The notes: generated from the sequence alone by a model not told the origin. 36,911 nt of DNA from a virus (IMGVR_UViG_3300000227_000016:1-36911), one strand, 5' to 3'. Counted from the stretch's first letter, positions 4,901 through 25,088 are shown. Numbers and translations are program-made.

Positions 4901-5830
4901 CGGTATAATTCCTATCTCTGTATTCGCATCAAGAGTTATTGAGCTTATATCGCTTGTTTCATGGATTATATTCTTTAATGCCCAATGACCGAGCCAGTTG
5001 TCAAAATTCAAGATTAAATTTTTGTCATTAAGTCTATACCCGTGAGACACAGTTGGAATCGTTATAACACCCGAAGGAATGTTACTTCCTGCGTTCTTGG
5101 GGTTATTATTAGAATTGTCAAAAGTCCCGGCAAATACACATTTATGTTCGCCTAAATGAATTTTAAAGGCAAAACATCTGTCCTCAATAACTGTCCAAGA
5201 ACTCCCGGCATCTCCTGAGCTAACATACCAGCCACCTATCCAGCCTCTCCTGTTTTCAACTTTACTGTATTCAACACTGTTATCATTTGCGCTTGGATGT
5301 GTCTCACCAGTATAGAATACTATTGCATATTCAGTCCCGGAAGTTAAGAGGTATTCCGTCGTAAAATCTATTTTATTGAATGTCGCTGTACTTGTGAACC
5401 CGACACTTGCCGACCCAGTAGCCAGAACTGAACCAGTGGGTTTATGGTTGGTATCTACTGCATAGAGTTTGATATAAACTGTCTGGGTATCTGTACTCGT
5501 CCCTTTAACCCTGAGTGAAACAGACTTGAGATATTCAGGCTTCTTGGCGTAGAATGTCTGACAACCATAATAAGTATCAGAGATTTGTAAATCATCTGAC
5601 CTTGTCCCTGTGTTCTCATATATTAATTTACTATCATCATCATTAGTCGCCAGGTATATCTTGAACTCGTCTCCCCTTTTAAGGGCGCTGAACATTCTTT
5701 TATCGTAATCTACCAAGTCAATAAAACTGTGGCTCAACATATCCTGACAATGGTTATTTACGGTTATTTTTTTTATTCGGGTGCTTATGTCTTCATTCGT
5801 CCCGCCCGAGCTTGTAAGCAATACTTTCAT
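1982..5830 (-). CDS. Baseplate hub / tail tip protein with inserted propeller and sugar-binding-like domains
   Basis: About 1282 residues from ATG 5830, which has GGTAA upstream; an earlier in-frame start at 5851 would overlap the preceding gene. The N-terminus (about 1-75) and the part around 'GFGALKSVAQALGMNYYVD' look like a phage tail hub (Tal/gp27-like). Inserted in it are a jelly-roll-like domain (about 80-240), a first beta-propeller-like domain (about 315-540), a carbohydrate-binding-like beta-sandwich (about 715-870) and a C-terminal propeller with 'YDGTYLWVAG' and 'YDGTNIWYT' blades. It is the last tail gene, where receptor-binding tips normally sit. No peptidase motif is evident. 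Confidence 0.75.
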   Translation of the reverse strand: MKVLLTSSGGTNEDISTRIKKITVNNHCQDMLSHSFIDLVDYDKRMFSALKRGDEFKIYLATNDDDSKLIYENTGTRSDDLQISDTYYGCQTFYAKKPEYLKSVSLRVKGTSTDTQTVYIKLYAVDTNHKPTGSVLATGSASVGFTSTATFNKIDFTTEYLLTSGTEYAIVFYTGETHPSANDNSVEYSKVENRRGWIGGWYVSSGDAGSSWTVIEDRCFAFKIHLGEHKCVFAGTFDNSNNNPKNAGSNIPSGVITIPTVSHGYRLNDKNLILNFDNWLGHWALKNIIHETSDISSITLDANTEIGIIPFKAFSFDKSNIWGASSGTIYKVSHYTFETVSSYSPAQSIDHIFFDGNYLITTNIVNNRLDFRLTSTPATSTENYLFPEIIDGTSSYAYVVAVGRYYYILSQLNKATPFDGEWAIVKCHKEGASGSYLVYDDYYRLDSVNMRDNTVRGFTFDGRYFYVLGGADGSRKVAYYDLLKGHVDPYTKILTKVGDFTPNYGNNAIGINYYWDEHNEYIVEMNNSGLYAKFNIINRMNIKSTGIEITNNKVSYTSRGETGFGALKSVAQALGMNYYVDEGQNVVCATASDSLGNIEAYNGTQDNAENNVLSWDISKIEVVNKVTVYGRKMGNSQIMASYQDDTSIAKYGTIEKEIRSENIYNYEEAYDMAKAMIELQKDGIVKGKIEINGESGVEMNKKIQTNISNGATYVQDTFMKFDAQATDGWTNVTNTSGHTDNSDSKQGDYSLQFSLAASQTYAAITNTNITTTNISNYKKASFWFYVGTSKRVSKITLLIGNDVNNYIECYIYRIKSGWNYAEVDLKNYDSSYGTPDLTNIGVVRFIFTYTSGDAVTIRLDDLRWLDCRYDVVGITHLYGAGRKKYKTQVVINEKPRFISDSISNIQGRASGAVSLDNPYKFKDGSYLWSAERGNTLTLTNCVQEDDGITISDVNETATAITETKALGFNVTYGLCNLIGKDLGSSKIEISNDGGSTYDEAIIGRPEPFTASNDDIKVRVSIYNDIMMLLTWKSDTGDAYYSKRWFDRYIFPQIEQKTYIRSYVLNTPYLKGCYDTERDVLWITEGTATDSVVRQIDPKTYKEISKFDVNDLYLEGVVYDGTYLWVAGLDISINPIMRKYSTAGVQQGGDITTEDSPYGLAYDGTNIWYTYSNYIAKINQTQALSDGSCTNASGNEISRFQDTDFSGFTDLTFDRDGNIWAIGSNYSSGKWSEYQIVRYTTSGTKVYGVSKPFLNTYPMSIIYMKGTALINPKLQGIELKLRK

Positions 5831-5831
5831 T

Positions 5832-6254
5832 TTACCACGGCTCGCCCTCAATCAAAGTAAAAGTAGCCTCCCAGAGAGCATTATTGCCCGTTTTATGCGG
5901 TATTTTGAGATTAGTCATCCAGACCCTTAACCAGCTTGCACTCGGATAATCGGGGTCGCAGATAAACTTTAACCCGTAATCATGATGCCCAGTACCGCTT
6001 CCAAGAGTCCCTTTTGACAGCAAAATGAGATTATTTTTCTCGGATAATGATTTAATCAGTGTCTTGCATACTATTGTATGACCTGTGCTGACGAAATCTG
6101 TTATTAGCATTTTCTCTTCATAAGGCATATCGTCAATTTCGATACCCGAACGGTTAAACTCCTCATCTACAATCTCGAAACTGTTGCTGAAAGTGTACGT
6201 AGAGTTTGTTATTACATTATCAGTTGAATCCAGCATCGCTAAACTTATCGTCAT
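5832..6254 (-). CDS. Distal tail protein-like
   Basis: A 140-residue beta-rich protein between the tape measure and the hub, the place of the distal tail protein (Dit) in siphoviruses. The pattern of an N-terminal strand-rich ring domain with a conserved-looking end ('NNALWEATFTLIEGEPW') fits a Dit or gp17-like ring. Its ATG overlaps the tape measure stop (TAATG), indicating coupled translation, with GGTGG upstream. Family assignment is by context and fold impression. Confidence 0.55.
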   Translation of the reverse strand: MTISLAMLDSTDNVITNSTYTFSNSFEIVDEEFNRSGIEIDDMPYEEKMLITDFVSTGHTIVCKTLIKSLSEKNNLILLSKGTLGSGTGHHDYGLKFICDPDYPSASWLRVWMTNLKIPHKTGNNALWEATFTLIEGEPW

Positions 6255-9818: not shown

Positions 9819-9919
9819 AACACCACACTTAAAAATATGATAAAGATAAATAAAAATAAAGTGAAAATTATAAGACCGCTTGTAATGAGTATCCTGATTA
9901 ATTCTTCTGTTTCGGTCAT
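9815..9919 (-). CDS. 34-residue single-span membrane protein
   Basis: MTETEELIR followed by one hydrophobic helix (ILITSGLIIFTLFLFIFIIF) and a short tail. It is joined to both neighbours by 3-4 base overlaps (ATGA with the connector, GTGA with the gp10-like gene), which strongly suggests it is translated. Role unknown; a membrane mini-protein inside the neck cluster is unusual. Confidence 0.7.
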   Translation of the reverse strand: MTETEELIRILITSGLIIFTLFLFIFIIFLSVVL

Positions 9920-10812
9920 AGTATATTCATCGGGAGCTTTATTTCTGTAATCATGCTTAATTTTTCATCAATGTCCCTTTTCCAAAATTCCATTTTACTT
10001 GTAAGGTTTACTTGGTCTGTCCCCGCTGGAAGTAATGTCGTCCTGTCAAGAACGCTGATTAAGTCAATAGCTACCATTTTCGTGCAGATGTCCTCAATCA
10101 TCTTGTTTACATGAGTTTCTCCGTACCTGTATTTAATCCTTATGCTTGCTGGTCTGTTTCCACCCCACATCCATTTAATAAAAAGTATTCCCCGCCTATA
10201 ATCAAGCCAGTAATCATCAGCCCTGCCTTCAGTTTTTGTAGTAAGCCAGTTTTCCCATTCGCCACCATTCCAGAAATCAAATGCATCTCCATAATCTGAA
10301 TCAAGCTGTTTTATTGCCCTATGGCCAAGATAAACGGGTCGCCCAGATAAATATTCATAACTCATGTGTAAATCGTGCATCTCATAATCTGGGTCGGTAT
10401 CTTGTCCTGTTTGAGTCTCTGAGTATCTTTCTCTCCATGCATGGCCTGTGCGATGGTCTATTTCATCTTCATGCCTGCTTATTAATTCCTGAATATCCTG
10501 AGTCGTTACGCTCGTTGAGTCCGAGATGGTCGGTAAATTGAGAAATGAGACCACTTTAGCTACGGTGGTATAAGTGTTGGACATTCCTTTTAACGGGACA
10601 GAATAGGCGGATTCCTCGCTTGTAGATGAATTGTAATAACTTGTCTTGTACCAACTCGTTGAACTTCCATCCTCATCATAATAAGTCAGGTCTGTTAAAG
10701 CCTGAGTAGTAATAAGGCTGAATGTCCCCGTCCGGCTTGTTGACCTGTATAATTTCCATTGATTGAACCCACTACTTGTCGGAGCATCCTGAATTGTTAT
10801 AAATATTCCCAT
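9916..10812 (-). CDS. Head-tail connector protein with N-terminal FN3-like domain
   Basis: 298 residues. Residues about 1-75 look like a fibronectin type III or Ig-like domain ('WKLYRSTSRTGTFSLI', 'SWYKTSYYNSSTSEES'). The remainder is like gp6/gp15-type head-tail connectors: 'VSFLNLP' followed by 'QDIQELISRHEDEIDHRTGHAWR' region, central beta part, and C-terminal helices ('MIEDICTKMVAIDLI'). GGTGGG lies 6 bases before ATG. The FN3-like domain probably projects from the neck. Confidence 0.65.
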   Translation of the reverse strand: MGIFITIQDAPTSSGFNQWKLYRSTSRTGTFSLITTQALTDLTYYDEDGSSTSWYKTSYYNSSTSEESAYSVPLKGMSNTYTTVAKVVSFLNLPTISDSTSVTTQDIQELISRHEDEIDHRTGHAWRERYSETQTGQDTDPDYEMHDLHMSYEYLSGRPVYLGHRAIKQLDSDYGDAFDFWNGGEWENWLTTKTEGRADDYWLDYRRGILFIKWMWGGNRPASIRIKYRYGETHVNKMIEDICTKMVAIDLISVLDRTTLLPAGTDQVNLTSKMEFWKRDIDEKLSMITEIKLPMNIL

Positions 10813-10842: not shown

Positions 10843-11034
10843 TTATATCTCTTGCAGAATTATTTCTCTTGGTTTTATTTCCTGTAATATTTTTTTTGGA
10901 GTTATTTCCTCTACGACCATCCTGTCTGGGATTGCTTTAAGCGAGACTGACCCTATCGTTTCTGTGAATTCCATGCTTTCGTTTATTTCAATCAGAAACA
11001 ATGTAGAGATATTTGTTCCTCTGCTCGCCATCAT
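10843..11034 (-). CDS. 63-residue unknown protein
   Basis: Begins MMASRGTNISTLFLIEINE and ends with a quasi-repeat, 'KKILQEI' and 'EIILQEI'. It starts in an ATGA overlap with the preceding exported protein, so the frame is probably real. No family recognised and no signal peptide. Confidence 0.55.
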   Translation of the reverse strand: MMASRGTNISTLFLIEINESMEFTETIGSVSLKAIPDRMVVEEITPKKILQEIKPREIILQEI

Positions 11035-11588
11035 ACCACCGAATATACTTCATAAGCTCCCAAGCCTTGTGTTACATTAAGACAGGTCGCTACAAACCAT
11101 ACATAAAAACATTGACCGACCTGAAGCGAAGAATATATTAATTGGGGTGTTGTCGTTAAATTTATCAGGTTCTCTGTTATTGATATGTTTGAGGCGTATA
11201 GATACCAGCCAGTATTTAATGTTTCAGATAACTTTACATAAACATCGCCTTTTTTGGTCCCATTATTGCAGATTAGGTCTATGCCATAGGTCTCAGTCTG
11301 ATTTTCGGGGACGGCACTATAATTCTGGATACTCGCTCCGCAAGTCCCTATCCTGAATATAGTCGTATCTGGCGGTCCGAATGATAAATTAATATCGGGA
11401 AAAATTGTTACAGTAACATTATTACTGAAGAAGTTGCCTGTTTCTATATTGGCTACATCAAAAAGTCCAGAAGTTTGATTGTTTCCAATTAGATATGTAT
11501 TCGTAAGCTCCAAGTCCGAAGCAGAGACATTGCTAATAAGAGCAATTAAAACCAAAATACAAGATAATACCCTTTTCATAATCATCAA
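11031..11588 (-). CDS. Exported glycoprotein-like protein with signal peptide
   Basis: About 180 residues with a clear Sec signal: basic MKR, hydrophobic core (VLSCILVLIALI) and an A-x-A-like end (NVSAS). The mature part is beta-rich with many N-x-S/T sequons, as in archaeal surface proteins. Starts at 11585 or 11579 are more likely than the TTG at 11588. It follows the propeller gene with overlapping stop and start. A secreted protein inside the virion structural cluster suggests a surface-exposed or membrane-processed adhesin. Confidence 0.7.
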   Translation of the reverse strand: MMIMKRVLSCILVLIALISNVSASDLELTNTYLIGNNQTSGLFDVANIETGNFFSNNVTVTIFPDINLSFGPPDTTIFRIGTCGASIQNYSAVPENQTETYGIDLICNNGTKKGDVYVKLSETLNTGWYLYASNISITENLINLTTTPQLIYSSLQVGQCFYVWFVATCLNVTQGLGAYEVYSVV

Positions 11589-13552
11589 CTTATAATTAAA
11601 AGCCTGCTTCTTAAACTTGGCGCACTCGTTATAGTGAAGCAGTATTCCTCACTTACATTAAGATTATCTGCGGTGTCATTCGCATAAACTTTCCAACAGA
11701 CCTCTGTTCCATTTATATCATTTAGATAAAATGTCCCGTTTGAATATCCACTTGTAGTTGCGGAGAAGTCCGTCCATGACTGATTAACATAAGGTGCTTC
11801 CTCACCGGCTATCGTATAATTAATCCATAAATACGGTTTATTTGCTTCTGTCCTGTCCTGAAAATGTTTTTTATTAGTACCAGTACTTCCAATTCTCCAA
11901 TCTATATATGTTCCTTTGCTTGTTCCCGTTGCTTCTGTTGTAAGTCCAAGCTCTATACTGAATTGTAAGTCTCCGTCATTGAGCATCCTTTTTACAATAT
12001 TTGTTATGTTGGCATAATCCCACCCAGTTGTCCCCGTCCATGCCGAAGCCCTATATGATTGATTTGCCCTTGTACTTCCAGACCACGTACTCCATGAACT
12101 GCAAGTCGTGCTTTCATTCCATGTGCTTGCATTGTCAACAAACCATGCATATACAGTATTCGGTGGAGTCCCCGTAACATAATCCCTATAAGCGTAAAGC
12201 CTTGCTTCAACAATATTAGCACTTGAATTTCCGTTTAAGTCTGATAAGTCAAAATAAGCAAATTCCCTGTAAGGTTTGAAACAGTATATGTCATAGATAG
12301 CTGTCTGGCCTTGTTCACTTCCATTCCATACATTATAAGTTGCCCCCGTTCCACTTTCATTCTTTATGCTGAACATATAATCATCTAAATCATTGTCATC
12401 ACTCCAAAGAAGGCTTAACAATGTCCAGCCTCCGAGAGTTGTGTTCTGGCTTGCAGTAGAATTAGCGTATTGAGGAGCTTCCACACCTGTGTTATTATTG
12501 AATGTGAAATGTGTAATAGAGCTGTGCCATATATCAAGATTATCCTGAACCCATACCGTATAGTTATTGCTTCCATTTATTAATGAAGGTGTGGGAATAG
12601 TATAATTTACCCTTAAATCTCCGAATGCGTATGTGAGCCAATCATCCACTGCTATATAATATTGACCGTTGCCAATAGCTCCAGTTGAATAAACCGTTCC
12701 AAATTCGTTAGTTGTATCCCATAAAGATTTACCAGACTTAAAGCTCCAAGCTAAAGAACAATTCTCTTCATAGAGAGCAAAAATCCATGAATCCGCCGCT
12801 ATGAATGCACTTGCGGAAGCTAAATAAACAAGTCCATTGCTTGATATGGCTGGGACTGTTTCCATATGCGGAAATGATGTTTCCACTGGTAAAGTGGGAT
12901 AATAATCAAAAAAACACGATGTGCTTCCACTTGTTATATTAACTTTATGCACATCTCCTCCGTCCCCTATACCCAAACCTTCTTCAATCCATGCATAACC
13001 ATCGTTATATACAGCAGTAAGCAATACATCCTCTATGTCTGACCTCCATATTAAAGTTCCATTATCCTTCCATAATGCGTAAAAATCAAGACCTGTTGAA
13101 TTATCTATCGTGTATTGTCCTACAAATAATCTTTCACCTATTATTAACGGTGTGGCTTTCCATGCACCCTCACCACCATTTCCAGTATCCGTATAATTCC
13201 ATTTCTGGGTTCCATTAATTTTCCATAAAGCATATACGGAAGCTAATGAATCATTATTAACATGACATGTAAAATATATACAATCATCATCGCTGTTCAC
13301 AGATTCGGTTACAATATCATCTTCGGGAACAAAACAATCTACATTATGTGTTCTCCATTTTTCTGTGCCGTTAGACCATAAAGCAAATGTATATGTTCCA
13401 TTGTTAAAATAAAGAACATCATTAACAGTATCATAATCTCCTAATCCACCGGAAGCACCCATTACATCAGTGAAATTCCATGCCTGTGTACAATTATCCT
13501 TCCAATATGCATATAAACCCTTCTCATTAGCGGAATCAGAACTGGAAGACAT
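11585..13552 (-). CDS. Beta-propeller / DNRLRE surface protein (second half of a split adhesin?)
   Basis: About 655 residues from ATG 13552 (GGTGA 8 bases upstream). Residues 1-270 are PQQ-like propeller blades ('LYAYWKDNCTQAWNFT', 'YALWKINGTQKWNYT', 'FYALWKDNGTLIWRS'). Then a linker, a DNRLRE-type domain (about 380-570, ending 'EANKPYLWINYT') and a C-terminal Ig-like module. The first blades lie in the preceding ORF, whose last strands match the pattern just before this start. The two may be one protein split by a two-base shift at a TA tract, or two coupled genes. Confidence 0.7.
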   Translation of the reverse strand: MSSSSDSANEKGLYAYWKDNCTQAWNFTDVMGASGGLGDYDTVNDVLYFNNGTYTFALWSNGTEKWRTHNVDCFVPEDDIVTESVNSDDDCIYFTCHVNNDSLASVYALWKINGTQKWNYTDTGNGGEGAWKATPLIIGERLFVGQYTIDNSTGLDFYALWKDNGTLIWRSDIEDVLLTAVYNDGYAWIEEGLGIGDGGDVHKVNITSGSTSCFFDYYPTLPVETSFPHMETVPAISSNGLVYLASASAFIAADSWIFALYEENCSLAWSFKSGKSLWDTTNEFGTVYSTGAIGNGQYYIAVDDWLTYAFGDLRVNYTIPTPSLINGSNNYTVWVQDNLDIWHSSITHFTFNNNTGVEAPQYANSTASQNTTLGGWTLLSLLWSDDNDLDDYMFSIKNESGTGATYNVWNGSEQGQTAIYDIYCFKPYREFAYFDLSDLNGNSSANIVEARLYAYRDYVTGTPPNTVYAWFVDNASTWNESTTCSSWSTWSGSTRANQSYRASAWTGTTGWDYANITNIVKRMLNDGDLQFSIELGLTTEATGTSKGTYIDWRIGSTGTNKKHFQDRTEANKPYLWINYTIAGEEAPYVNQSWTDFSATTSGYSNGTFYLNDINGTEVCWKVYANDTADNLNVSEEYCFTITSAPSLRSRLLIIS

Positions 13553-15581
13553 ATATATAATCACCATGAATTAACATGGGGTAAAAGCCCTTATTATCTA
13601 TTGTGCATGCTATTGTTCCATTCTGTCTATAAAGCTTATATGTTGTATTTGTTCTATTATCACGCCAATCACCATTATAAGTATGTAATCCCCAACTTCT
13701 TACCCATAAAAATTCTCCATCAAGAAGTATATCGGTATTATCATCAAATTGCCCAGTGCTATTTCTTACCCAAGCGGTTCTATTCGTTAATGGTGCTTCA
13801 TAATCAAAATATCTATTATTATCCATGAACCAACTTAATTCGTCCCATATTGCTGTCATTGTCTGATTCTCTCCACCATTGAAACTTATAACTACATTTT
13901 GCACATTGTTTTCTTCTATCAGAACAACGGTATTTGTGCTTAAATTTGATGAGTCATAACTTGTATTAAGAATGGTTTTAGTAATAAACGAAGGGTTTGT
14001 AGTGTCTATGCAGAAATGTCTTCCAGTTACTACGCTTTCGTTTCCTTCATCATTTCCTGCCATTATTGTCCAGAAGAAACAACCATCTCCATAATTTTGT
14101 GAATAGTAATTATTTGTTGTTGAGAAATTGATTTTAGAGTTTATATAACCGTAATAAGTTATATTCCCATCTACATCTCCGTTCCATGTAAGGTTCATTG
14201 TACCTGATGATTGTAAAGTATTTTCTGTTGGGGTGTTAAGAGATATTATAAGATTCTGAATGTTTATAGTTCTATTCGTGCTGTTTCCTGTATCTGTCCC
14301 ATCATTACATGATATATACCATTCACGAGTTCCGTTTAGCATCGTGCTTGCTGTTATTGTCGTTGCAGTGCCGTTGTTCGTTGTGGCGTTATAACCTCTT
14401 AATACAGAGTCTGCATATAATGAACAGTTTGCAGTTGTATCTTCAAGGTCGGTAAAACTAAATATGAAGCTTGGCGTGGTGTCGGATGTATTGTAGTTAT
14501 CTACCGGTGCATTTAGTGTAACTGCTGGAGCTGTATTTGTTCCAGATGATTCTTCCGTCCCATTGAAAAGCAAGAAAGATTCAGAAATAGTTGATGACTT
14601 CGTTGTACTTGTATATTTTGTCGTATTAAATGAATTGTCTTGAAAGTCATCTCCTATCAAAGAAGCTAATGCTATGTCAGACGCATCTGTTGCCGCCATG
14701 TTTGTATAATACATCCAAATCGTAATGTTTACATCTTTAGTGACATTACCCAATTTTACAAGAACATCTGCTGTGTGACCAGTGGCATTCCATTTCGCTG
14801 GATAAACATAATACGGGATAGATGTATTAGTGTTATCAGTAAATCTTAAGTCTTTCCCATTATTAGACCAGTTGAAACTTGGGCCAACATTAGAGTCTGA
14901 GAGGTGCATCATATATGACTTCTCTGTATAATTCTTCACTGTATTCTGAATTATGAAACTTTCCCTATTTGACCAAGAGGCATTCCACCATGTCCATTTA
15001 TCCTGCTTTAAAGTTATGTCTTTCACCGCACCCGAATATTCTTTTAAAAGAGTCATTTTTGGTATCCAGTCTACAAATCTCTTTCCTAATTTTGCTTTCC
15101 ATGTAGCTTTCATAACAATTATATATTCAGTGTTCGGTTTATACTTAAACCCGTTTGCTGATGTGAGAACTTCTCTTATTTCTTCTTTTGTTCCATTTTC
15201 TTTTTTAATCCAGTAAGAACAATCATAAGTTGAATCGTTTTCGGGTTGGTCCCAAACACCTGTTATAGATTGACCCATTATTATCGGCTTGTAATCATCA
15301 ATTCTGAATACCTCACTTCCTGTTGCGTTTGTTCCATCATCATAAGTAGCGGAATAAACAGCAACGTAAGCCCTCTTCTGTAATTGAGGATAAGTCCAAT
15401 CATAACGATACAAAGTTCCACTAACCTGTATCATATTATCATTATTAACATCTGTTACAATCGCAGAACCATCATAATGATAAATTTTTATAGTAGGAGT
15501 TCCTACTACTGTTGCTTCTTCTCCTGCTATTGTCAAAAAATGAGCATATAATGAAGCCGAAATTCCCGTATTATATAACAT
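13536..15581 (-). CDS. Tail fibre/adhesin with DUF2341 and Ig-like domains (first half of a split gene?)
   Basis: 681 residues. N-terminus (1-100) is a beta-rich attachment-like domain; residues about 195-310 are a DUF2341 domain ('WWNASWSNRESFII', 'DLRFTDNTNTSIPYYV', 'WMYYTN'); then archaeal Ig-like domains with 'ANCSLYADSVLRG' and 'GTREWYISCNDG'; the C-terminus begins a beta-propeller ('DGEFLWVRSWG', 'YKLYRQNGTIACTI', 'YPMLIHGDYIY') and stops abruptly after a TA-rich tract. Very rich in N-x-S/T sequons. GGAGGGGG precedes ATG 15581. The following ORF continues the propeller in another frame. Confidence 0.75.
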   Translation of the reverse strand: MLYNTGISASLYAHFLTIAGEEATVVGTPTIKIYHYDGSAIVTDVNNDNMIQVSGTLYRYDWTYPQLQKRAYVAVYSATYDDGTNATGSEVFRIDDYKPIIMGQSITGVWDQPENDSTYDCSYWIKKENGTKEEIREVLTSANGFKYKPNTEYIIVMKATWKAKLGKRFVDWIPKMTLLKEYSGAVKDITLKQDKWTWWNASWSNRESFIIQNTVKNYTEKSYMMHLSDSNVGPSFNWSNNGKDLRFTDNTNTSIPYYVYPAKWNATGHTADVLVKLGNVTKDVNITIWMYYTNMAATDASDIALASLIGDDFQDNSFNTTKYTSTTKSSTISESFLLFNGTEESSGTNTAPAVTLNAPVDNYNTSDTTPSFIFSFTDLEDTTANCSLYADSVLRGYNATTNNGTATTITASTMLNGTREWYISCNDGTDTGNSTNRTINIQNLIISLNTPTENTLQSSGTMNLTWNGDVDGNITYYGYINSKINFSTTNNYYSQNYGDGCFFWTIMAGNDEGNESVVTGRHFCIDTTNPSFITKTILNTSYDSSNLSTNTVVLIEENNVQNVVISFNGGENQTMTAIWDELSWFMDNNRYFDYEAPLTNRTAWVRNSTGQFDDNTDILLDGEFLWVRSWGLHTYNGDWRDNRTNTTYKLYRQNGTIACTIDNKGFYPMLIHGDYIYVFQF
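13550..13560 (-). repeat. TA dinucleotide tract at the join of two adhesin frames
   Basis: The minus strand reads TTATATATATG. One more TA unit here would put the 13536-15581 frame in phase with the 11585-13552 frame, giving a 1332-residue protein. The tract is short, so a role in slippage is possible but not shown. Confidence 0.5.
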
Positions 15582-15582
15582 A

Positions 15583-16165
15583 TTAATATCCCCCTCCTAA
15601 ACCTAAATCAACATAAGTATCGCAATCTATATAGACATCTTCGGAAATAACTTTAGCGGTAAATATCCATTTACCATTTCCTCCTGTTACTCGGAACTTA
15701 TTAGAGCCCAAATTACAATCCTCACTTATAGTGCAATTATCGGAACATATTCCTATCCAATCACCCGATGTGGGGCATGAACACGTATCCGTTACTTCCG
15801 TAGTTACAAGATTATTGATGTCTGTGGAGTTCCAATTACCTGCATTATTCTTCGCATACCATCTATACCCTATGGACTTCCCAACTGTGGAATTGAGAAC
15901 CTTACTTACATTCGCATATTGCGGTGTGGCAGTGAAATTAACTGCTGAATCATTAACCCAGGAACCTGTGTTGTTCGTGCTGAATATGTATTGACCTGCT
16001 GGGTGCAGTGCTGTGTCATCATTCCATTTCACGGAAAATTTGACACTTGCACCAGCAGATGTGGTATTATGTGATACCTCGGAGTATGTTGGCGGTATTG
16101 TATCAGGCAAAGTATATGTTACATAAAGTATGGGCCTATTTGCTGTGTCATGTTCCTTGGTGGCA
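15583..16165 (-). pseudogene. 3' part of frameshifted DNRLRE/Ig-like surface protein
   Basis: This frame has no good start of its own; the first in-frame start-like codon is a TTG at 16110. Read from about 16165 it gives 'KEHDTANRPILYVTYT', the typical last strands of a DNRLRE domain, whose earlier part is in the other frame of the upstream gene. It continues with an Ig-like module of a common archaeal type ('YIFSTNNTGSWVND', 'NSTVGKSIGYRWYAKNNAGNW') and a Cys-rich end. Adding one T to 'AAATTGCC' near 16165 restores a single gene of about 617 residues. Confidence 0.75.
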
Positions 16166-17435
16166 ATTTAAAATGGTCTGAATATGATGGTGAACCACTT
16201 GCTATTGTTGCTATCATCCATATGCTTACTTTTTTACTTCCACTATTTAATTCTCTTGTGACCATCTGTGTTACTGTCCAATTTTTAAATCCTGTTGTAC
16301 CAGACGTTATCGTCTGTGAGCCCTCACCTGTAGTATTATAATATGTGCTTGATGATGGTCTTGTGTTCCAGCATAATTCATTCCCAGTACATCCTGAATC
16401 GTTATACGAATCACCTTCTGTCCACTCGCTACCACTTATCGTATAAATAGATGAATTGTATATATGATGCGATTTAACAGTCAATGACTCTCCTGCATCA
16501 AGATAGTTTGAGCCAATACGAACTGATAAAATAGCAGACTCAATAGTAACCCCATCGGGAATATCTGATAGATTCCATTTAGAGATATATTCCCTCTTTT
16601 TAGCATTACTTGAATAAGATAACTCTTTAGCGAGACCTATCGCTCCTCTATCTGCTGTGCCATAGTATGTTTCTATATATGTATCATCAAGATTTCCTGT
16701 GTTTGGTGTGGTTATTACTATAGTTGTTGAATTCCCCCCAAAAGAATATTCATTACCATAAATATAATCCACAAAAATATCAGTTGTCTTCCTACCACTA
16801 CCAACTTCTTTATAATTACATTTTTCTTTCATACACCACTTTATCTTTGCATTTTCATCTTTAGTAAATGTTTCAAACCTCAACCATGTAAGATTTCCAG
16901 TTATATTTAATATCTCATACTCTGGGTCTTGCCCAATATAAGTGAAAGGAATATCAAATTCTTTTGCATCAGAAACCTTTTTCCAGAGACCTTCTTTATC
17001 TTTAACATTTGCTTCTCCGCCTATAATAACATTGTGTTTTCCATTACCTAAATCATAATCAACGGAATTTTCACTTATCTTATATTTACCTTTTTCGCTG
17101 TCCATATATTCCGTATAAGAATCAGTAATTTTCATAGGAACCTCAATCATCATATAACACCGAGTGTTGGTTGTTCGAGAGCAATACATCTCCTTATTTT
17201 CTATATCACATCTATATTTACCAACAGCCGAATGTTCTTTATCCACATTTATAATTTCACTCACATTATACCAAATTCCATAATCTTTCCCGACCTGACA
17301 AATATCATATGGAGGTTCTTCTGTCGTATCTTGCAATGCAACCCATACTCCCCCTATAAGTATAATTAATGTCATTACTCCACCCACCAATTCCCAATAC
17401 CACCTTGTTTTCTTTGATTCTGCTTCCTCTTCCAT
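16119..17435 (-). CDS. Membrane-anchored DNRLRE surface protein, 5' part of a frameshifted gene
   Basis: 438 residues as read. Charged N-terminus (MEEEAESKKTR), then one membrane helix (about 15-33, 'LVGGVMTLIILIGGVWVAL'), a Cys-containing beta domain (about 45-230) and a DNRLRE domain (about 235-425). The final residues 'LPPRNMTQQIGPYFM' do not fit the family; the correct ending is in the -1 frame, implying loss of one base near 16165. N-in topology would place the bulk outside the cell. It starts directly after the stop of the long fibre gene. Confidence 0.7.
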   Translation of the reverse strand: MEEEAESKKTRWYWELVGGVMTLIILIGGVWVALQDTTEEPPYDICQVGKDYGIWYNVSEIINVDKEHSAVGKYRCDIENKEMYCSRTTNTRCYMMIEVPMKITDSYTEYMDSEKGKYKISENSVDYDLGNGKHNVIIGGEANVKDKEGLWKKVSDAKEFDIPFTYIGQDPEYEILNITGNLTWLRFETFTKDENAKIKWCMKEKCNYKEVGSGRKTTDIFVDYIYGNEYSFGGNSTTIVITTPNTGNLDDTYIETYYGTADRGAIGLAKELSYSSNAKKREYISKWNLSDIPDGVTIESAILSVRIGSNYLDAGESLTVKSHHIYNSSIYTISGSEWTEGDSYNDSGCTGNELCWNTRPSSSTYYNTTGEGSQTITSGTTGFKNWTVTQMVTRELNSGSKKVSIWMIATIASGSPSYSDHFKLPPRNMTQQIGPYFM

Positions 17436-20249
17436 TTAACACCACGCATGAATACTCCCTGCGACTGACATAATCATACAAGTTCCGTTGAAATACATTG
17501 AAGCATCAACTCCTGGACTGTTACCCATCCATAATCTTTCATTGTCATTGAGAAGGAACCCATTTGCAGTTATATTATAAGGTCCAGCATCCCAATTAGC
17601 TGTTAAAACTTGACTTCCATCTGCTTTCAAGAATGTTGAATTATCAACCACTGCCCAAACTTGTGCTGTCGTATTCCATAACTCATTTCCTGTCTGAAAT
17701 GCAGAACAAGTCAGTGTATCCCCCATCTGTGTAACTGCTTGACCAGGAGAACATCCAGAGGGATAATCATTGATGTCCAAAGCCCAGTTATCTATCTGTG
17801 TTATTGCCCCTGAAACACAATTAGTTATTTCCGAACATTCATCATGCGAGGAATCAGTTTCTGGATAGCCCCATGATTTTGTCAAATTCAACTCTGTTCC
17901 ATTAACTGCCGTTATCATTTGAGATGTTGTATTGTAAGTATCCTTATCAACTTCACAGGCCAAATCATTCCCCGATATATATAAATGATTACCAGCCGCA
18001 CAACTTGTATCAAAGTCCAATTTAGATTCAGGTATTCCATCACTTGAAATGTCTCCCGACTCGTTCCAATAACCATTATCATTAATCACTGCCAATATTT
18101 GAGTGGATGTATTCCATGTGTCTGTGTCAGTTACTGTTTCTGTGGCTGTGGTTATACTCGTTATATGACCAAATGTATCAAGAATAATGTCCTGTATATA
18201 AGTCCTTCCAGAGTTATCTGAACTTGTTTGAGAACTTGTATCAGAATGGTTGAATTGTGTCCCCGTTAATGTTAGACCACTTCCATTAATATATTGCGTA
18301 TTTGTATCTGTATCCAGAATGAAATCTGCAATCGAATAACAATTTGAGCTATTACACCAAATATCTGAACTTGAACCAAATATACTTGCATTCATATATC
18401 CTGTTGTATTAATATTTAATTGCCCACCGGATGTTGTGTTAGGATACATCCAACTTCCTGAAGTACCCCAATAATTTGCACCTGAACCACTTCCAGAAAC
18501 ATCACTACCACACAACCAGTTTGTTCCCGACATTTTGAGTATTTGACCGTTTGAACATTTTGTAAGATTATTATAACCTATCAAATAAGAACTATTCCAG
18601 TAAAAGTTATCCGTCATAAAAGAATGAAAATCACTTGTTGTATTGTATGTATTTGTGTCCATATCCGTACAGAAGTCACTATCAGGACTTCCTATTATAT
18701 CAGAACATGAGACCGTCTTATTCATCGTAGAATTTGTAATTGCATTTTCAACACAACCTGTTATTTCCGAACATTCATCATGCGAGGAATCAGTTTCTGG
18801 ATAGCCCCATGATTTTGTCAAATTCAACTCTGTTCCATTAACTGCCGTTATCATTTGAGATGTTGTATTGTAAGTATCCTTATCAACTTCACAGGCCAAA
18901 TCATTCCCCGATATATATAAATGATTACCAGCCGCACAACTTGTATCAAAGTCCAATTTAGATTCAGGTATTCCATCACTTGAAATGTCTCCCGACTCGT
19001 TCCAATAACCATTATCATTAATCACTGCCAATATTTGAGTGGATGTATTCCATGTATCCGTATCCGTACAGAAGTCACTATCAGGACTTCCTATTATATC
19101 AGAACATGAGACCGTCTTATTCATCGTAGAATTTGTAATTGCATTTTCAACACAACCTGTTATTTCCGAACATGCATCCTGAGCATCGAGTGCAATATCA
19201 ACCTGAGAACTATTATAATAATTACCTTTATCTGCCGTCCAATTTCCTATGCTATTAACCACTGCTGAAAGTGTCGTATAGCCAAGTCCAATTACCCAAT
19301 CATATATCTGGTCGGCTGTTGAGAGATGTGTCGTGTCTCCATTAGAGGGTGTTGCTGTAGGTATATCTGAAACAGAGTTATACCAGTCGTCAGCCACTAT
19401 AAGGTTTCCATATTCATCACAGGACAAGTGGTCGCTTGCACCATCAGTCACTCCTGAGCAATTAAGCTCTGCGGTAAGGTAATTTCCATCAAAATTAAGG
19501 TTGATAGAATCCGTGTTATTTATATCCGTGTTGTTTATGAAGGTGTTGTCAGCATCTGTTATCGTATAATAGTTAGACGAGCCATTCCATTCTCCATTAA
19601 AATAAGGTGCAGAAACATTTCCAGTGAAATTCGCTCCACTTAATCTTGCGAAAAGTGTATCTACCTGAGTGCTTGTATAATAGCTCGTTTTATCAGCTAA
19701 CCAATTTCCGTAGGTATCAACAAGATATGTCTCATTGAACATGAGATAAATCCCACTCTGATAGAACCATGTTAAATTGAATGAACTCATAGAACCCCAA
19801 TAAGTTGAACTGTTTGTGTCAAGATTCTCAGGGTCTGTTATCTGTCCCGAACTTATGCTTACATTCGTCCAATCGCTTGCGCTAACCTTGTTTGCTGTTA
19901 TATTCAAAGCGTAAACATTCCTGAGAACTGAATCGGGCTGTGTATGGTTCGCTCTGCTTGTCCCGTTTCTGTATTCGCACATATATTTTGGCATATAATT
20001 TAAACTACTTAGGTCAATTTCTATGAACCCTATCCCTCTATCGTCTGTTGTGACCGTCTTTTCAGCCGAAAGGATTACATTCGTGCAGTCCGCACTGTTA
20101 GTAAAATTGAAAACATACTCAAAATAAGTATTTTCATAACTTGAGCCATTTTCATCTTTCGGATTGACATAAGTGTTAAGAGTTTTGCTTGCCGAGACTG
20201 TCCCGATTAAAACCATGAAAATAAGCCCGAATAAAATTATCTTCTTCAT
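17436..20249 (-). CDS. Long repeat-containing fibre with Sec signal peptide
   Basis: 937 residues. N-terminal signal peptide (MKKIILFGLIFMVLIGTVSA), then many N-x-S/T sequons and repeated modules such as 'SEITGCVENAITNSTMNKT' and 'TWNTSTQILAVINDNGYW'. The C-terminal part has a phage-fibre motif, 'DGSQVLTANWDAGPYNITAN'. So it combines an exported-protein start with a virion-fibre end. Two perfect 296-bp repeats and a 113-bp repeat lie inside it. GGGGGAG precedes the ATG. It probably forms an elongated adhesin; whether it is in the virion or on the host surface cannot be told. Confidence 0.75.
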   Translation of the reverse strand: MKKIILFGLIFMVLIGTVSASKTLNTYVNPKDENGSSYENTYFEYVFNFTNSADCTNVILSAEKTVTTDDRGIGFIEIDLSSLNYMPKYMCEYRNGTSRANHTQPDSVLRNVYALNITANKVSASDWTNVSISSGQITDPENLDTNSSTYWGSMSSFNLTWFYQSGIYLMFNETYLVDTYGNWLADKTSYYTSTQVDTLFARLSGANFTGNVSAPYFNGEWNGSSNYYTITDADNTFINNTDINNTDSINLNFDGNYLTAELNCSGVTDGASDHLSCDEYGNLIVADDWYNSVSDIPTATPSNGDTTHLSTADQIYDWVIGLGYTTLSAVVNSIGNWTADKGNYYNSSQVDIALDAQDACSEITGCVENAITNSTMNKTVSCSDIIGSPDSDFCTDTDTWNTSTQILAVINDNGYWNESGDISSDGIPESKLDFDTSCAAGNHLYISGNDLACEVDKDTYNTTSQMITAVNGTELNLTKSWGYPETDSSHDECSEITGCVENAITNSTMNKTVSCSDIIGSPDSDFCTDMDTNTYNTTSDFHSFMTDNFYWNSSYLIGYNNLTKCSNGQILKMSGTNWLCGSDVSGSGSGANYWGTSGSWMYPNTTSGGQLNINTTGYMNASIFGSSSDIWCNSSNCYSIADFILDTDTNTQYINGSGLTLTGTQFNHSDTSSQTSSDNSGRTYIQDIILDTFGHITSITTATETVTDTDTWNTSTQILAVINDNGYWNESGDISSDGIPESKLDFDTSCAAGNHLYISGNDLACEVDKDTYNTTSQMITAVNGTELNLTKSWGYPETDSSHDECSEITNCVSGAITQIDNWALDINDYPSGCSPGQAVTQMGDTLTCSAFQTGNELWNTTAQVWAVVDNSTFLKADGSQVLTANWDAGPYNITANGFLLNDNERLWMGNSPGVDASMYFNGTCMIMSVAGSIHAWC
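17824..18119 (-). repeat. 296-bp perfect direct repeat in the fibre gene, copy 1
   Basis: Base-for-base the same as 18760-19055 as far as can be read. It encodes about 98 residues including 'DKDTYNTTSQMITAVNGTEL'. Perfect identity points to a recent duplication or ongoing gene conversion. Confidence 0.9.
18662..18774 (-). repeat. 113-bp direct repeat in the fibre gene, copy 1
   Basis: Identical to 19061-19173 (offset 399 bases, in frame), encoding the 'SEITGCVENAITNSTMNKT' module. It overlaps the edge of the 296-bp repeat at 18760. Confidence 0.85.
18760..19055 (-). repeat. 296-bp perfect direct repeat in the fibre gene, copy 2
   Basis: Second copy of 17824-18119, in the same frame, 936 bp apart. 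The repeat unit keeps the reading frame, so copy-number change would lengthen or shorten the fibre. Confidence 0.9.
19061..19173 (-). repeat. 113-bp direct repeat in the fibre gene, copy 2
   Basis: Second copy of 18662-18774. Confidence 0.85.
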
Positions 20250-20771
20250 TTAGCTCTCCCCCACTGTCATAGTAAATCTTAATTCTATCTGGTCGTATGT
20301 TTTCAATGTATAAACAGCGTCAAGAAGGAACTCATTTACCATTGTCCCACCGCTTTCTGCTGTGAATATTGCACCTTTCTGTATTGAGCTTTGGTCTCCT
20401 GTCGCCGTCCAGCGTTTAGTCAATGTTATTACTTTCGTTCCAGTCGTATGTGCTGAGACCATTATTGCCCTTGAAAAGCCATTAGAACTCAACTCACCCG
20501 TAAGTTCTGTATCAGTCGCATCAGGCCCGGTCGAATCTGTGCTTAATGCTCCATAAACAGCTCCCACACTTCCTAGACCACTTATGCCATACATCTGATT
20601 CAGAAGAAAATCAAAACCAGTATTTGTTATAAGGTTTTTTGTGGGCTTCCCTTCAACCCAGTCAGTATATCTGCCCCTGACGCCGTTTATTTCTTCGTCC
20701 CCGTTTTCGTCCTGAATAAATCTTCTCGTTCTGACTTGGACATTTTCATTAAAGTTAATTTTGGCATTCAT
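20250..20771 (-). CDS. Virion-associated protein of tail-fibre type
   Basis: 173 residues. Contains 'NLITNTGFDFLLNQMYG' and 'VYGALSTDSTGPDATDTELTGE', patterns common in small phage virion proteins that precede fibres ('value given, then assigned to +/- A and B' beta folds). No signal peptide. It directly precedes the exported fibre gene with no gap and probably belongs to the same appendage. Confidence 0.6.
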   Translation of the reverse strand: MNAKINFNENVQVRTRRFIQDENGDEEINGVRGRYTDWVEGKPTKNLITNTGFDFLLNQMYGISGLGSVGAVYGALSTDSTGPDATDTELTGELSSNGFSRAIMVSAHTTGTKVITLTKRWTATGDQSSIQKGAIFTAESGGTMVNEFLLDAVYTLKTYDQIELRFTMTVGES

Positions 20772-20781
20772 ACCTACCAGT

Positions 20782-21333
20782 CTATTTTATAACAGTAGTC
20801 ACTATCAGAGTTTGTGCTTCCCTTTCTATTACCCAAGCCCCGCCTCCGAATCCGTTGTTTCCTGCAAAATATGCAAAGCTTGAGTTTGCTGGCGTTTCAA
20901 TATGTGCAAGAAGCTCTCCGTCTGAGACCGAATAAACCTTGCAATATGCAACCGTCCCTGCCGTGTTTCCTGTAAGGATTGTCTTAACCCTGACGCTCGT
21001 GAACTCGCCATAATGAGGTATAGGGTTTAAATATAATGTCTGGGACTTACTCGTTCCACTAACCGTATATCTTGCACAATCATGACTGTCTCCATATTTA
21101 GTGTGTGCATACGCTATGATTAGTATTTCATCACCCGTTTCGTATTCAATGGTTTGTCCACTTCCTATTGGAAGGTCGGCCAAATCAATAACTACTACAC
21201 CGCTTGGGTTAGTTGTCCCTACAGCTGAGCTCGTTTTTTTAGTTGTATTCCTGACATAGGCTTTCGCTCCGGATTTTAAAGTTGAATTATCCACGTCGTA
21301 TACTGTAATCGTAATTGGATGTGAATCTGTCAT
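20782..21333 (-). CDS. Beta-sandwich virion or appendage protein
   Basis: 183 residues. The first 100 residues look like a carboxypeptidase-regulatory or Ig-like sandwich ('ITITVYDVDNSTLKSGAKAYVRN', given here only as residues 7-29 in part; 'TNPSGVVVIDLADLP'). The end has the strand-rich 'RVKTILTGNTAGTVAYCKVYS'. Family not named. Its position between capsid-associated paralogues and fibres suggests a head or appendage protein. Confidence 0.6.
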   Translation of the reverse strand: MTDSHPITITVYDVDNSTLKSGAKAYVRNTTKKTSSAVGTTNPSGVVVIDLADLPIGSGQTIEYETGDEILIIAYAHTKYGDSHDCARYTVSGTSKSQTLYLNPIPHYGEFTSVRVKTILTGNTAGTVAYCKVYSVSDGELLAHIETPANSSFAYFAGNNGFGGGAWVIEREAQTLIVTTVIK

Positions 21334-21397: not shown

Positions 21398-21661
21398 CTA
21401 TTTGCCGATTGCGAGCCAATATAATGTTGCGTCATTAGATTCTGAGACGACTGTCACATCTCCACCTGAAAGCGGTAAGGTTTCATTTACTGAGGCGTTC
21501 TTCTGCGTTCCGCCGTAAGTTGATACTGCGAAGAACTCTACAAGCCTGAGACCGGTTGCGACATCCCCCGTATTTGTGCCTCCCGATAAAACGGACTGTC
21601 CATATATATATTTCTTGTCGCCCCATGTGCCCTTATCAATTACCGTATTTGTTATCGCCAT
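21398..21661 (-). CDS. 87-residue capsid-associated protein, paralogue B
   Basis: Ungapped alignment with its upstream neighbour (21662-21925) gives about 51 of 87 identical residues, including 'DVATGL', 'SVNETLPL' and 'GGDVT'. All-beta composition, no cysteine. Small tandem proteins soon after the capsid gene are often decoration or cement proteins; that role is inferred. It starts directly after the stop of its paralogue. Confidence 0.7.
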   Translation of the reverse strand: MAITNTVIDKGTWGDKKYIYGQSVLSGGTNTGDVATGLRLVEFFAVSTYGGTQKNASVNETLPLSGGDVTVVSESNDATLYWLAIGK

Positions 21662-21925
21662 TTAGACACCTATCGCCATCCAGTAGATTGTCCCGTCTGC
21701 GGTTTCGATAACGGTTGTAACATCCCCGCCTGCCAACGGCAATGTCTCATTAACTGAGAACCCTTTTTGTGTTGAACCACTTGTAACGGGTATGAACATC
21801 TCGACACGGTTAAGGCCAGTCGCTACATCTTCTGATGTAGAACCACCGGCATAGACAGACTTGCCATAGACAATCCTTTTGTCCCCGAATATTGCCCTAT
21901 CTATTATCGTTGTAGTTATACTCAT
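21662..21925 (-). CDS. 87-residue capsid-associated protein, paralogue A
   Basis: Tandem paralogue of 21398-21661, of exactly the same length. The shared core ('DVATGL', 'TQK', 'SVNETLPL', 'GGDVT', 'YW.AIG') suggests a common fold; differences cluster in the middle, as expected for subunits of a mixed oligomer or for diverged decoration proteins. Confidence 0.7.
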   Translation of the reverse strand: MSITTTIIDRAIFGDKRIVYGKSVYAGGSTSEDVATGLNRVEMFIPVTSGSTQKGFSVNETLPLAGGDVTTVIETADGTIYWMAIGV

Positions 21926-22405: not shown

Positions 22406-23602
22406 TTAAGCCTTCAGGTCCCTTAACTTGCCCTGAACTGCAAAGAATGTGCAAATAAGTTCTCCCATTGTCCTGTACATTCCTTCAGTCCCGAACTTAT
22501 TAACTGCAAACGGTGTATCCGTGTTCATGCCCGCCTCAAAGTATTGTGTCGGTTTGGCTATTTTCAGTCCGAGTCTCGGGAAGTCCTTTCCTTCAGGATT
22601 GCTTATATCAAGCAAATAAAGTCTTGATATTCCGCCCGTTTCCTGAACTGTGTCTTTTGATTGTATCACAGGTCTTCCGAGTATGCTCGCTACTGACATG
22701 GCTACATCGTTTCCTTTTTGAGAGCTTATACCATTTACACCGACACTTATTTTCGTCTCTCCAAGTATGTTATACCTAACCTGTGTTTCATAGAGCTGGT
22801 TTATCGCTGCCCAAGTGTCGTACCCTGTCTGGAAGAATTGACCTGCTGGATTTGCCCCGTAAAGCAGTGTATTCTGAACAAGCGACTGAATCAGAGTGTC
22901 CGTCAGGCTTCTGTCTGTGCCTGAGTTATGGCCAACATAAGCGTCTGTCCACCCTGCGGCTCCGTCCCTGTCCTGAGAGTAGATGTCAACATCGCCTGTG
23001 GTGTATGCTCCGTTTGCCGCTTGTGTGCAATTTGTTATTTCAGAGTATGAGCTAACTACCCTGTCTATTGACTCAAAGTTGTAACCTGCGAGTGTTCCGT
23101 TTTCTGTGTTAAGCTGTTTATTAAGGTCTTCTTTGTGTTCGACAGCAAAGTAATCCCTCAGGTCTGCCATTGCACCTATTGCGTCATCTCCGCTTTTGGC
23201 AAGGAACTCCTGAACTTCGGAGTTATCAAATGTCACAGCCGAGATTTTCGGTTTGGTGCTGACTTCCGCCCATGTAGGCTTTATTGTGTCCGGGAGTGCT
23301 CCTGACTCTGCCTGACCTCCATAAGGAAGTGTCGTGCTTCTTGCAGTTATTACTCTCCAGCCTGACCTTGTCCAAGGTAACTTAGGCAAAACACCGAAAG
23401 TATTTGCTTCCTGATTAAGCTGAACCCATGCCTGACTTCCATACACGGCATTGTAGACTCCGGTAGTTGTTGAAAGTACAGGTGCATCTGCTTTTGTAAG
23501 AAACGGTGCTACAATATCGCTCTGGGCAAGGAAGTTCATTCCGTTTTGGGAATAGTACAGCTTCTCAAGGTCTTCTATTGTAGTTATAAGATTGCTTGTC
23601 AT
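22406..23602 (-). CDS. Major capsid protein (HK97 fold)
   Basis: About 398 residues from ATG 23602, which follows GAGGTGA by 5 bases; the longer frame to 23623 overlaps the protease. Signatures typical of HK97-like capsids: long N-terminal helix, 'WVQLNQEANTFGVLPKLPW' region, E-loop-like 'TTLPYGGQAESGALPDTIKPT', 'KISAVTFDNSEVQEFLAKSG' spine helix, and C-terminal 'RLGLKIAKPTQYFEAG'. It follows the protease-scaffold gene and precedes the terminator, as expected for the most abundant virion protein. Confidence 0.85.
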   Translation of the reverse strand: MTSNLITTIEDLEKLYYSQNGMNFLAQSDIVAPFLTKADAPVLSTTTGVYNAVYGSQAWVQLNQEANTFGVLPKLPWTRSGWRVITARSTTLPYGGQAESGALPDTIKPTWAEVSTKPKISAVTFDNSEVQEFLAKSGDDAIGAMADLRDYFAVEHKEDLNKQLNTENGTLAGYNFESIDRVVSSYSEITNCTQAANGAYTTGDVDIYSQDRDGAAGWTDAYVGHNSGTDRSLTDTLIQSLVQNTLLYGANPAGQFFQTGYDTWAAINQLYETQVRYNILGETKISVGVNGISSQKGNDVAMSVASILGRPVIQSKDTVQETGGISRLYLLDISNPEGKDFPRLGLKIAKPTQYFEAGMNTDTPFAVNKFGTEGMYRTMGELICTFFAVQGKLRDLKA

Positions 23603-23612
23603 ATTTTTCACC

Positions 23613-25088
23613 TCATTTCCCAAGAACCTTTCTTAACCCATCTTCGTATTGGGCACGGAATAGGTTTCTTGCCTCTCTGTTTCTGTCGGCGAGGGTCTTC
23701 TTTCCCTCCCTGACTTCTTTCATAGACTTCATCACGAAGTCCTCTTTCTCAACACCCTGAGTTTGGTTGTCTATTACCTTCATTTCAGGTCTGGGAGTTT
23801 CAGCCTTCATTATTTCTTTGGTTCCTTTCTTTTCAAGAAGCCCTTTAAGGCTTTTCATGAGCTCGTTATTTTCTTTCAGAGCCTTTTCAACAAGATGAAT
23901 CTTGTCGTCTTCGGGCTTGTTTGTCATTTCGGCATCCGCCTTTGGAACGACCTCCTTCGCTTTCTCTCCAGCCATCATGTCATACAGTTTTGACAGCTTT
24001 TCTTCAAGGGCATTGAGTCTTTCCTCTATTGAGACTGTTGGCTCTTGAACATCTACTTCCGCAGGTTTCTTTTCTTCCTCCGGAAGCTTTGGCTCAATTG
24101 CTGGTGTCTCTTCTTTTTTTATTGTCATAGACTCTCCTCCATTTTCTTTATTTGAATTTTCGTTGCTCTGTTTATAAGCTTTGTTCGTGTTTTCTGTTTC
24201 AGCGTCATCTTTTTTTGTCTCACCTTCAACTTTTCTCATTATTACTGCACAATACGCCTCTGGGTCTTCTTTGTCTTTATTTTGTCTCACACAGTCTGCA
24301 AAGTCCTTATATCCGGCAAATGGTTTCTGTATTTCATGTCTTTCACTTCTTTCTTCGTCTGTTCTTGGCGTGCCTGTCTGTTGTGGGTCTGCATTTCCGT
24401 TCAGTCTCCCCGTTCCCCTCGGCGGTAATTCCTTGTTGTAATAATTCCCGTCTTCTTTCAGGTGGCCAATTACAATCACCGTTATTTTATTCATGTCAAA
24501 ATCAACAGACCCCAAATGCTCAAGCTCATTTCTTATCCCTTCGGCTATCTGTTCTGGTGTGAATCCTTCAGTTCCGGATTTTGCCAAGAAATTAACATAA
24601 GTGTTCTTTGCGTAAGGGTTGCTCGGGTTCGGCACGCTGGCTACTTCATAAGCCTCAATCCCTGAGAGCTTCCTGACTATCTTATCTCCTTCCTTAATTA
24701 ACTTAGGCTTTCCTGTCGCCCTTCCGCCAAAACTAAGCCCTGTCCTCACGCCTGACTTTATCTCGTTCCAAACATCGTCATCTATTGAATACTTATCATA
24801 AATCTGATAATCAACAAGTATCCCTTCTTTGTTTGCTTCTTCATTGGTTGCGGTCTTCCAGTTAAGGACTTTACCTATTACTCTGTTTGTATGATTGTCA
24901 GTTACTACTCCGCCTCTGCTCATAAAAGTATTCATGACTTTTTTTAGCTCATCTAACGGTATTATCTCATCCTGCGAATCACCTGTCTCAACAGTGAGCC
25001 ATCCTTGTGCTATCCTGTCGTTTTCATCTTTTATTTCGTCCATCGGGTACTGTTTAGCCCCGCTTGAATTTACTGTATAACTTCCCAT
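23613..25088 (-). CDS. Prohead protease fused to scaffold, with an inserted small domain
   Basis: 491 residues. N-terminus resembles XkdF/phage serine protease: 'GGVVTDNHTNRVIGKV' (candidate catalytic His66) and 'VRTGLSFGGRA' (candidate Ser119). Residues about 205-290 hold an extra domain with 'ELPPRGTGRLNGN' and 'CVRQNKDKEDPEAYCAVIM'. Residues about 330-440 are a coiled-coil, charged scaffold, ending in a basic tail. Placement between portal and capsid genes supports the role. AGGTGG precedes the ATG. Confidence 0.75.
   Translation of the reverse strand: MGSYTVNSSGAKQYPMDEIKDENDRIAQGWLTVETGDSQDEIIPLDELKKVMNTFMSRGGVVTDNHTNRVIGKVLNWKTATNEEANKEGILVDYQIYDKYSIDDDVWNEIKSGVRTGLSFGGRATGKPKLIKEGDKIVRKLSGIEAYEVASVPNPSNPYAKNTYVNFLAKSGTEGFTPEQIAEGIRNELEHLGSVDFDMNKITVIVIGHLKEDGNYYNKELPPRGTGRLNGNADPQQTGTPRTDEERSERHEIQKPFAGYKDFADCVRQNKDKEDPEAYCAVIMRKVEGETKKDDAETENTNKAYKQSNENSNKENGGESMTIKKEETPAIEPKLPEEEKKPAEVDVQEPTVSIEERLNALEEKLSKLYDMMAGEKAKEVVPKADAEMTNKPEDDKIHLVEKALKENNELMKSLKGLLEKKGTKEIMKAETPRPEMKVIDNQTQGVEKEDFVMKSMKEVREGKKTLADRNREARNLFRAQYEDGLRKVLGK

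Follow-up and report, generated by a model that had tools for sequence, protein, structure and literature searches.

Why would a tailed virus encode, in the middle of its structural genes, proteins that appear equipped to leave the cytoplasm? The question is raised by a 36,911-nucleotide (nt) stretch of DNA, IMGVR_UViG_3300000227_000016:1-36911, which is the whole of IMG/VR contig IMGVR_UViG_3300000227_000016 and is called the window below. Between its major capsid protein (MCP) gene and its connector gene, all on the minus strand, lies a module that takes up 25% of the window. Here, an earlier note had recognized two proteins with Sec signal peptides (17436-20249 and 11031-11588) and one with a membrane anchor (16119-17435), and these open reading frames (ORFs), their coordinates, and their strand proved correct. 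Virions of tailed viruses are assembled in the cytoplasm; to our knowledge, these viruses are taken to be built wholly there and without glycoprotein spikes. As argued below, comparison with related viruses strongly supports the view that the module proteins are likely exported and N-glycosylated, and gene position leans toward virion fibers over a role at the cell surface only. The module consists of the following ORFs:

17436-20249, minus strand: 937-amino acid (aa) protein with a predicted Sec signal peptide at residues 1-20, a domain at residues 21-140 common to the related locus L015, fiber-like repeats, 44 N-x-S/T sites (sequons), and 26 Cys.
16119-17435, minus strand: 438-aa protein with an N-terminal membrane anchor, 10 sequons against 4.9 expected, and a weak match to phrog_12204.
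15583-16110, minus strand: 175-aa ORF with no evident start of its own, putative continuation of 16119-17435 in another frame.
13536-15581, minus strand: 681-aa fiber-like protein with a DUF2341 domain (PF10102, E 3.6e-12), 31 sequons, a good Shine-Dalgarno sequence, and no signal peptide.
11585-13567, minus strand: 660-aa ORF with 30 sequons, putative C-terminal part of gene 13536-15581.
11031-11588, minus strand: 185-aa protein with a predicted Sec signal peptide and one domain.
10843-11034, minus strand: 63-aa ORF that resembles, by eye only, a shortened version of the pre-connector proteins (221 and 371 aa) in the related loci L003 and L005.

What do the export signals look like? The 937-aa protein starts with MKKIILFGLIFMVLIGTVSA, after which the predicted cleavage leaves SK, and the 185-aa protein with (LMI)MKRVLSCILVLIALISNVSA, after which it leaves SD. 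Both have the basic n-region, the hydrophobic core, and the A-x-A-like cleavage site, with small residues at -3/-1, that mark a Sec signal peptide, and neither has a further membrane segment, according to a rule-based call (not SignalP). In the 438-aa protein, residues ~16-33 form the single membrane segment; a clear cleavage site is lacking, and the topology is probably N-in/C-out. The sequon-rich 13536-15581 gave no signal peptide. The domain of the 185-aa protein recurs in L005, at the C-terminus of a membrane-anchored protein of 790 aa; the AlphaFold model of the 185-aa protein (predicted local distance difference test, pLDDT, 42) was too poor for use.

Two of the ORF boundaries deserve a comment. 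Across the junction of 16119-17435 and 15583-16110, the other frame reads on (...ATKEHDTANRPILYVTYTLPDTIPPTYS; ...TANRPILYVTYTLPDTIPPTYS), and at the junction of 13536-15581 and 11585-13567 the repeat pattern runs on through a TA-rich overlap of 32 nt. Each pair looks like a single gene broken by a frameshift, so that the module would amount to about four proteins. The 937-aa gene contains internal direct repeats of 300 nt (17799-18098 and 18735-19034) and 129 nt, 97% identical, and the 300-nt repeat appears to be a recent internal duplication. As for known families, neither Pfam nor PHROGs returned a convincing fiber profile for the window's module proteins, and neither confirmed the phage-fiber motif previously read at the C-terminus of the longest one. 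A short-peptide search of IMG/VR and a tblastn search of INPHARED found nothing for the 937-aa protein, and the DUF2341 protein had no match in INPHARED.

The second peculiarity is the number of sequons. Counts were compared with composition-preserving shuffles, with the reversed motif [ST]-x-N as control. The claim that most module proteins are sequon-rich stands: z is between 4.2 and 6.7 in four ORFs, namely 17436-20249 (44 versus 22.6 in shuffles, z 5.4), 11031-11588 (10 versus 3.3, z 4.2), 11585-13567 (30 versus 10.9, z 6.7), and 13536-15581 (31 versus 14.5, z 5.0), and it is 2.6 in both 16119-17435 and 15583-16110. The remaining structural proteins of the window do not exceed 1.2, except for the 63-aa ORF at 10843 (two sites, z 3.3). 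The six large module ORFs hold 133 N-x-[ST] against 75 [ST]-x-N, two patterns that are about equal elsewhere. Chance as the source of the excess was ruled out by the shuffles, and masking the internal duplication in 17436-20249 leaves z at 4.9, so that the duplication does not account for the count.

Is the excess tied to export? Sec export puts protein domains outside, where AglB works, and proteins retained in the cytoplasm are not AglB substrates. MCP searches yielded first 16 and then 75 related loci, and 800 ORFs of at least 150 aa were surveyed in these and the window. The ratio of observed to expected sequons is 2.21 for ORFs with a signal peptide, 1.61 for anchored ones, and 1.04 for those with neither. 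An excess with z above 3 occurs in 21 of 54 exported ORFs versus 7 of 746 others (Fisher p ~3e-21, a guide only, because related sequences are not independent). Among those seven are the window's own 13536-15581 and 11585-13567, and another lost its 5' end at a contig edge. In the archaeon G008, which carries a related provirus, cellular secreted proteins have a ratio of 1.24, and the viral excess is thus above that cell's usual level.

This last figure bears on the suspicion that the hydrophobic N-termini serve as assembly elements, or are bypassed by internal starts, and that the sequons are a by-product of captured host surface modules. The presence of surface-protein domains (DUF2341, immunoglobulin (Ig) repeats), the sequon richness of the signal-less 13536-15581, and the cytoplasmic assembly of tailed-virus virions all speak for such an origin. 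The viral ratio of 2.21 against 1.24 in G008 speaks against it, and so does the behavior of two proteins, A and B, found in the relatives; we consider it unlikely. To follow these proteins, the neighbors of the module are needed:

22406-23623, minus strand: MCP (phrog_24667, E 6.9e-53), left border of the fiber slot.
21662-21925 and 21398-21661, minus strand: two 87-aa paralogues, conserved beside the capsid gene in relatives.
20782-21333, minus strand: p183, which lacks a signal and is paralogous to the ectodomain of the relatives' membrane protein B; the A-B pair is absent here.
20250-20771, minus strand: p173, soluble and fiber-related, with weak Gp80/tail fiber profile matches, conserved ahead of the fiber slot in relatives.
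9916-10812, minus strand: connector-type protein (phrog_17057, E 3.7e-34, plus synteny), right border of the fiber slot.

Fifteen other viruses have the A-B pair: 13 carry it between the capsid-side 87-aa genes and p183, and the other two, L098 and L099, carry it despite different head genes. Protein A (about 420-720 aa) has a signal peptide, is rich in sequons, and lacks its own anchor; its gene stands immediately ahead of that of B. In L031 and L099, A was assigned from position and features, not by profile. Protein B consists of a signal peptide, an ectodomain homologous to the signal-less p183, in most cases a Cys-rich linker, one membrane segment, and a cytoplasmic tail. The full B alignment was too divergent for a profile search; a sub-alignment of the tail worked. 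Sequons number 423 in A versus 177 expected (13 A matches counted, one of them a cellular protein) and only 6 in B versus 18 expected. All 15 B tails contain an HxHx5YHx5H motif, for example L003:11388-12272, which is possibly metal-binding; other six-frame matches in the loci were short spurious frames only. Every A protein and all 15 B proteins retain the basic start and hydrophobic core despite a diverging N-terminal sequence, which speaks against an assembly element, and B has few sequons even though its signal, ectodomain, one membrane segment, and cytoplasmic tail are all preserved.

One protein A was modeled. The model shows tandem Ig domains; its mean pLDDT is 67, with the highest values in the Ig part and the C-terminal third not resolved. 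Its best fold match is the SiiE adhesin 2yn5 (Z 12.2, root-mean-square deviation 5.9 over 260 residues). INPHARED and PHROGs gave no match for A or B, and the PDB holds no sequence relative of A. A lysis role for the pair was considered and rejected, A being a large Ig-repeat protein with no match to a lytic domain. Membrane protein B probably tethers secreted A. The window is nested among A-B carriers in the MCP tree (100/90 support), from which it follows that it has probably lost the pair. Relatives also hold fusions of a glycosyltransferase-2 and a methyltransferase within the fiber module (L003:13425-14780, L004:16060-17439, and L006:8369-10417); none was seen inside the module of the window. 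A thermosome-type (Cpn60/TCP-1) chaperonin gene adjoins the connector gene in two loci, L006:11156-12739 (PF00118, E 2e-167) and L137:3575-5173 (by eye).

Could the module instead be an accident, cellular surface genes that were recently captured by, or mis-assembled onto, a viral contig, with the frameshifts as signs of decay? The two frameshift-like junctions and the near-identical 300-nt duplication would fit such a history. However, 13 related contigs, whose MCPs are 43-70% identical, show the same layout, the A-B pair extends to the two viruses with other head genes, and the 937-aa protein found one weak 34-aa match and nothing else in 87 archaeal genomes. Synteny largely refutes this account, which we regard as highly improbable.

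What kind of virus is this, and which host could glycosylate its proteins? The window has recognizable genes for terminase, portal-MuF, protease, MCP, connector, neck, tail tube, and tape measure, and on these sequence grounds it is a tailed archaeal virus, related, through homologous MCP, portal, and terminase, to the Druskaviridae-type Caudoviricetes; family membership is not claimed. Elsewhere in the window, 35756-36604 encodes a PD-(D/E)XK nuclease with weak Cas4 profile matches, 33219-33725 shows a CxC...CxH pattern like a SWIM zinc finger for which Pfam gave no match, and there are no tRNA genes. A CRISPR-spacer search of 87 archaeal genomes returned short AT-rich or partial matches only, with no spacer tie to the window. 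The MCP-based host search gave one provirus in G008, one contig of an archaeal metagenome-assembled genome (L021), and one contig labeled TA06 bacterium, which is probably mis-binned. The G008 provirus lies on the 155-kb contig C4 of this small-genome archaeon at ~104-131 kb (L087, L088), between genes read from sequence as aminoacyl-tRNA synthetase, ribosomal L35Ae, and RNase HII; it looks complete and is without the exported module. An STT3/AglB-type oligosaccharyltransferase is encoded in G008, in G001, and in 71 of the 87 genomes of their phylum. Conserved signal peptides, a sequon excess tied to export signals, and STT3 in the archaeon of the related provirus together make export and N-glycosylation likely. 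The comparison thus backs the export that the earlier note had proposed; the exported proteins may serve as decoys, in exclusion, in cell-cell attachment, or as fibers added at exit, the uses that it listed.

Gene position offers some guidance here. The tail module was read in three viruses, L003, L098, and L099. In L003, the tape measure and a small protein are followed by a 976-aa protein with a signal peptide or anchor (42 sequons, z 6.9) and then by a 491-aa signal-less protein. At the corresponding position, L098 has an anchored protein of 1856 aa (91 sequons, z 10.4), and L099 an anchored one of 322 aa together with one of 2293 aa (140 sequons, z 14.5); in both viruses a homologue of the 491-aa protein comes next. 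L098 has, in addition, a signal peptide-bearing 911-aa protein near the head genes with a weak match to phrog_9942 tail fiber (E 7.7e-4). Taken with those of the head slot, these proteins indicate that exported proteins occupy both fiber positions of the operon, and by synteny the genes sit within the head-tail module, where the fibers of a tailed virus are expected. The counterpart in the window, in tail-tip position, is 1982-5851, a large signal-less protein. Cytoplasmic assembly had been taken to mean that export implies surface display; with exported genes in head-fiber and tail-fiber positions of the late operon, that argument cuts both ways.

A serious rival is that the proteins are exported and glycosylated and never enter virions: they would coat the infected cell, block re-adsorption or superinfection, alter the S-layer, or stick cells to their neighbors. 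Phage tail proteins that also reach the host wall, PblA/PblB, are a precedent (PMC7600539). Protein A lacks its own anchor and is encoded directly ahead of B, as in a cell-surface complex, its fold is that of an Ig-type adhesin, and the signal-less 1982-5851 of the window could bind the receptor. Exclusion proteins are typically small and expressed early, whereas this module fills a quarter of the window, its genes stand in head- and tail-fiber positions, and several relatives without it have large signal-less proteins in the same head slot. PADLOC gave no match for a superinfection-exclusion role. We rate a role confined to the cell surface as a real possibility that falls short of probable.

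The reading that we prefer, and to which we give about an even chance, is that these are exported, host-glycosylated fiber or adhesin proteins that serve mainly as virion fibers matured outside the cell; the gene positions favor it, as does the location of the conserved part of B on the cytoplasmic side of the membrane, the side of the virion. The proteins would leave the cytoplasm through the host Sec translocon and be N-glycosylated by the host AglB/STT3 on the outer face of the membrane. They would then be displayed on the infected cell, free or bound to the S-layer after signal cleavage, or held by an N-terminal anchor; in the relatives, B would hold secreted A at the membrane. Finally, the fibers would join the particle as it passes the membrane: free fibers might bind released virions, or anchored fibers might be bound from inside through their cytoplasmic ends. 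A broader proposal, which we advance tentatively, is that a class of archaeal tailed viruses builds its virion partly outside, from Sec-translocated, N-glycosylated adhesive fibers. Anchored fibers, through their cytoplasmic N-termini, and the A-B complex, through its invariant His-rich cytoplasmic tail, would present inner ends to particles that dock beneath the membrane, and a capsid and tail assembled in the cytoplasm would receive the glycosylated fibers on the way out of the cell.

Several points weigh against virion fibers matured outside. Anchored fibers would need to exit the membrane or carry lipid, and attachment to the virion is a step that we infer. The ORF 13536-15581 is sequon-rich without an export signal, so that such an excess is possible without export. 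The signal-peptide caller is a simple rule made for this analysis and gives 3.5% positives on shuffled proteins. In HRTV-DL1, another archaeal tailed virus, loss of AglB left the infection cycle unchanged (PMC10384203).

For at least 16 archaeal viruses, such a recurring late-operon set of secreted and anchored, sequon-rich proteins would imply one of two things: tailed virions can bear host-glycosylated fibers, or infected cells are re-coated with viral adhesins. Either outcome would bear on host recognition, glycan mimicry, and virus-virus competition in uncultured archaea.

How does the module compare with known systems? A first comparison is with the Druskaviridae/HVTV-1-like haloarchaeal tailed viruses, in which protease, MCP, connector, and tail genes are similarly arranged (PMC8651126); the MCP of the window is ~35% identical to those of HVTV-1 and HCTV-1. 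HVTV-1 differs in having no exported sequon-rich module between MCP and connector, and the text of that survey, when searched, mentions neither glycosylation nor signal peptides. In HRTV-DL1, some sequon-bearing structural proteins seem to stain as glycoproteins and a putative attachment protein has nine sequons; a text search of the paper found no mention of a signal peptide (PMC10384203). The turrets and tail fibers of HFTV1 are proposed glycan-binding decorations on the head and tail of an archaeal tailed virus, and a search of that paper's text found no mention of signal peptides or virion glycosylation (PMC12494034). More generally, the open-access archaeal tailed-virus surveys and structures searched do not mention signal peptides on fibers, and no prior description of an exported glycoprotein fiber module was found in open-access papers.

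Other systems resemble the module in function or fold. PblA and PblB of Streptococcus phage SM1 are likewise tail proteins found on the host surface as adhesins, with the difference that their release, according to a review, needs the phage holin and lysin (PMC7600539), whereas several of the module proteins have Sec signals or anchors themselves and abound in N-glycosylation sites; the two would work alike at most. SiiE-type tandem-Ig adhesins share with the A protein of the relatives only the fold. The spikes of pleolipoviruses such as HFPV-1 are virus-encoded glycosylated surface proteins in archaea, and they belong to enveloped, tailless viruses, unlike the tailed virus of the window (PMC10384203). 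The label of a new viral surface system, which the earlier note had ventured, is reasonable.

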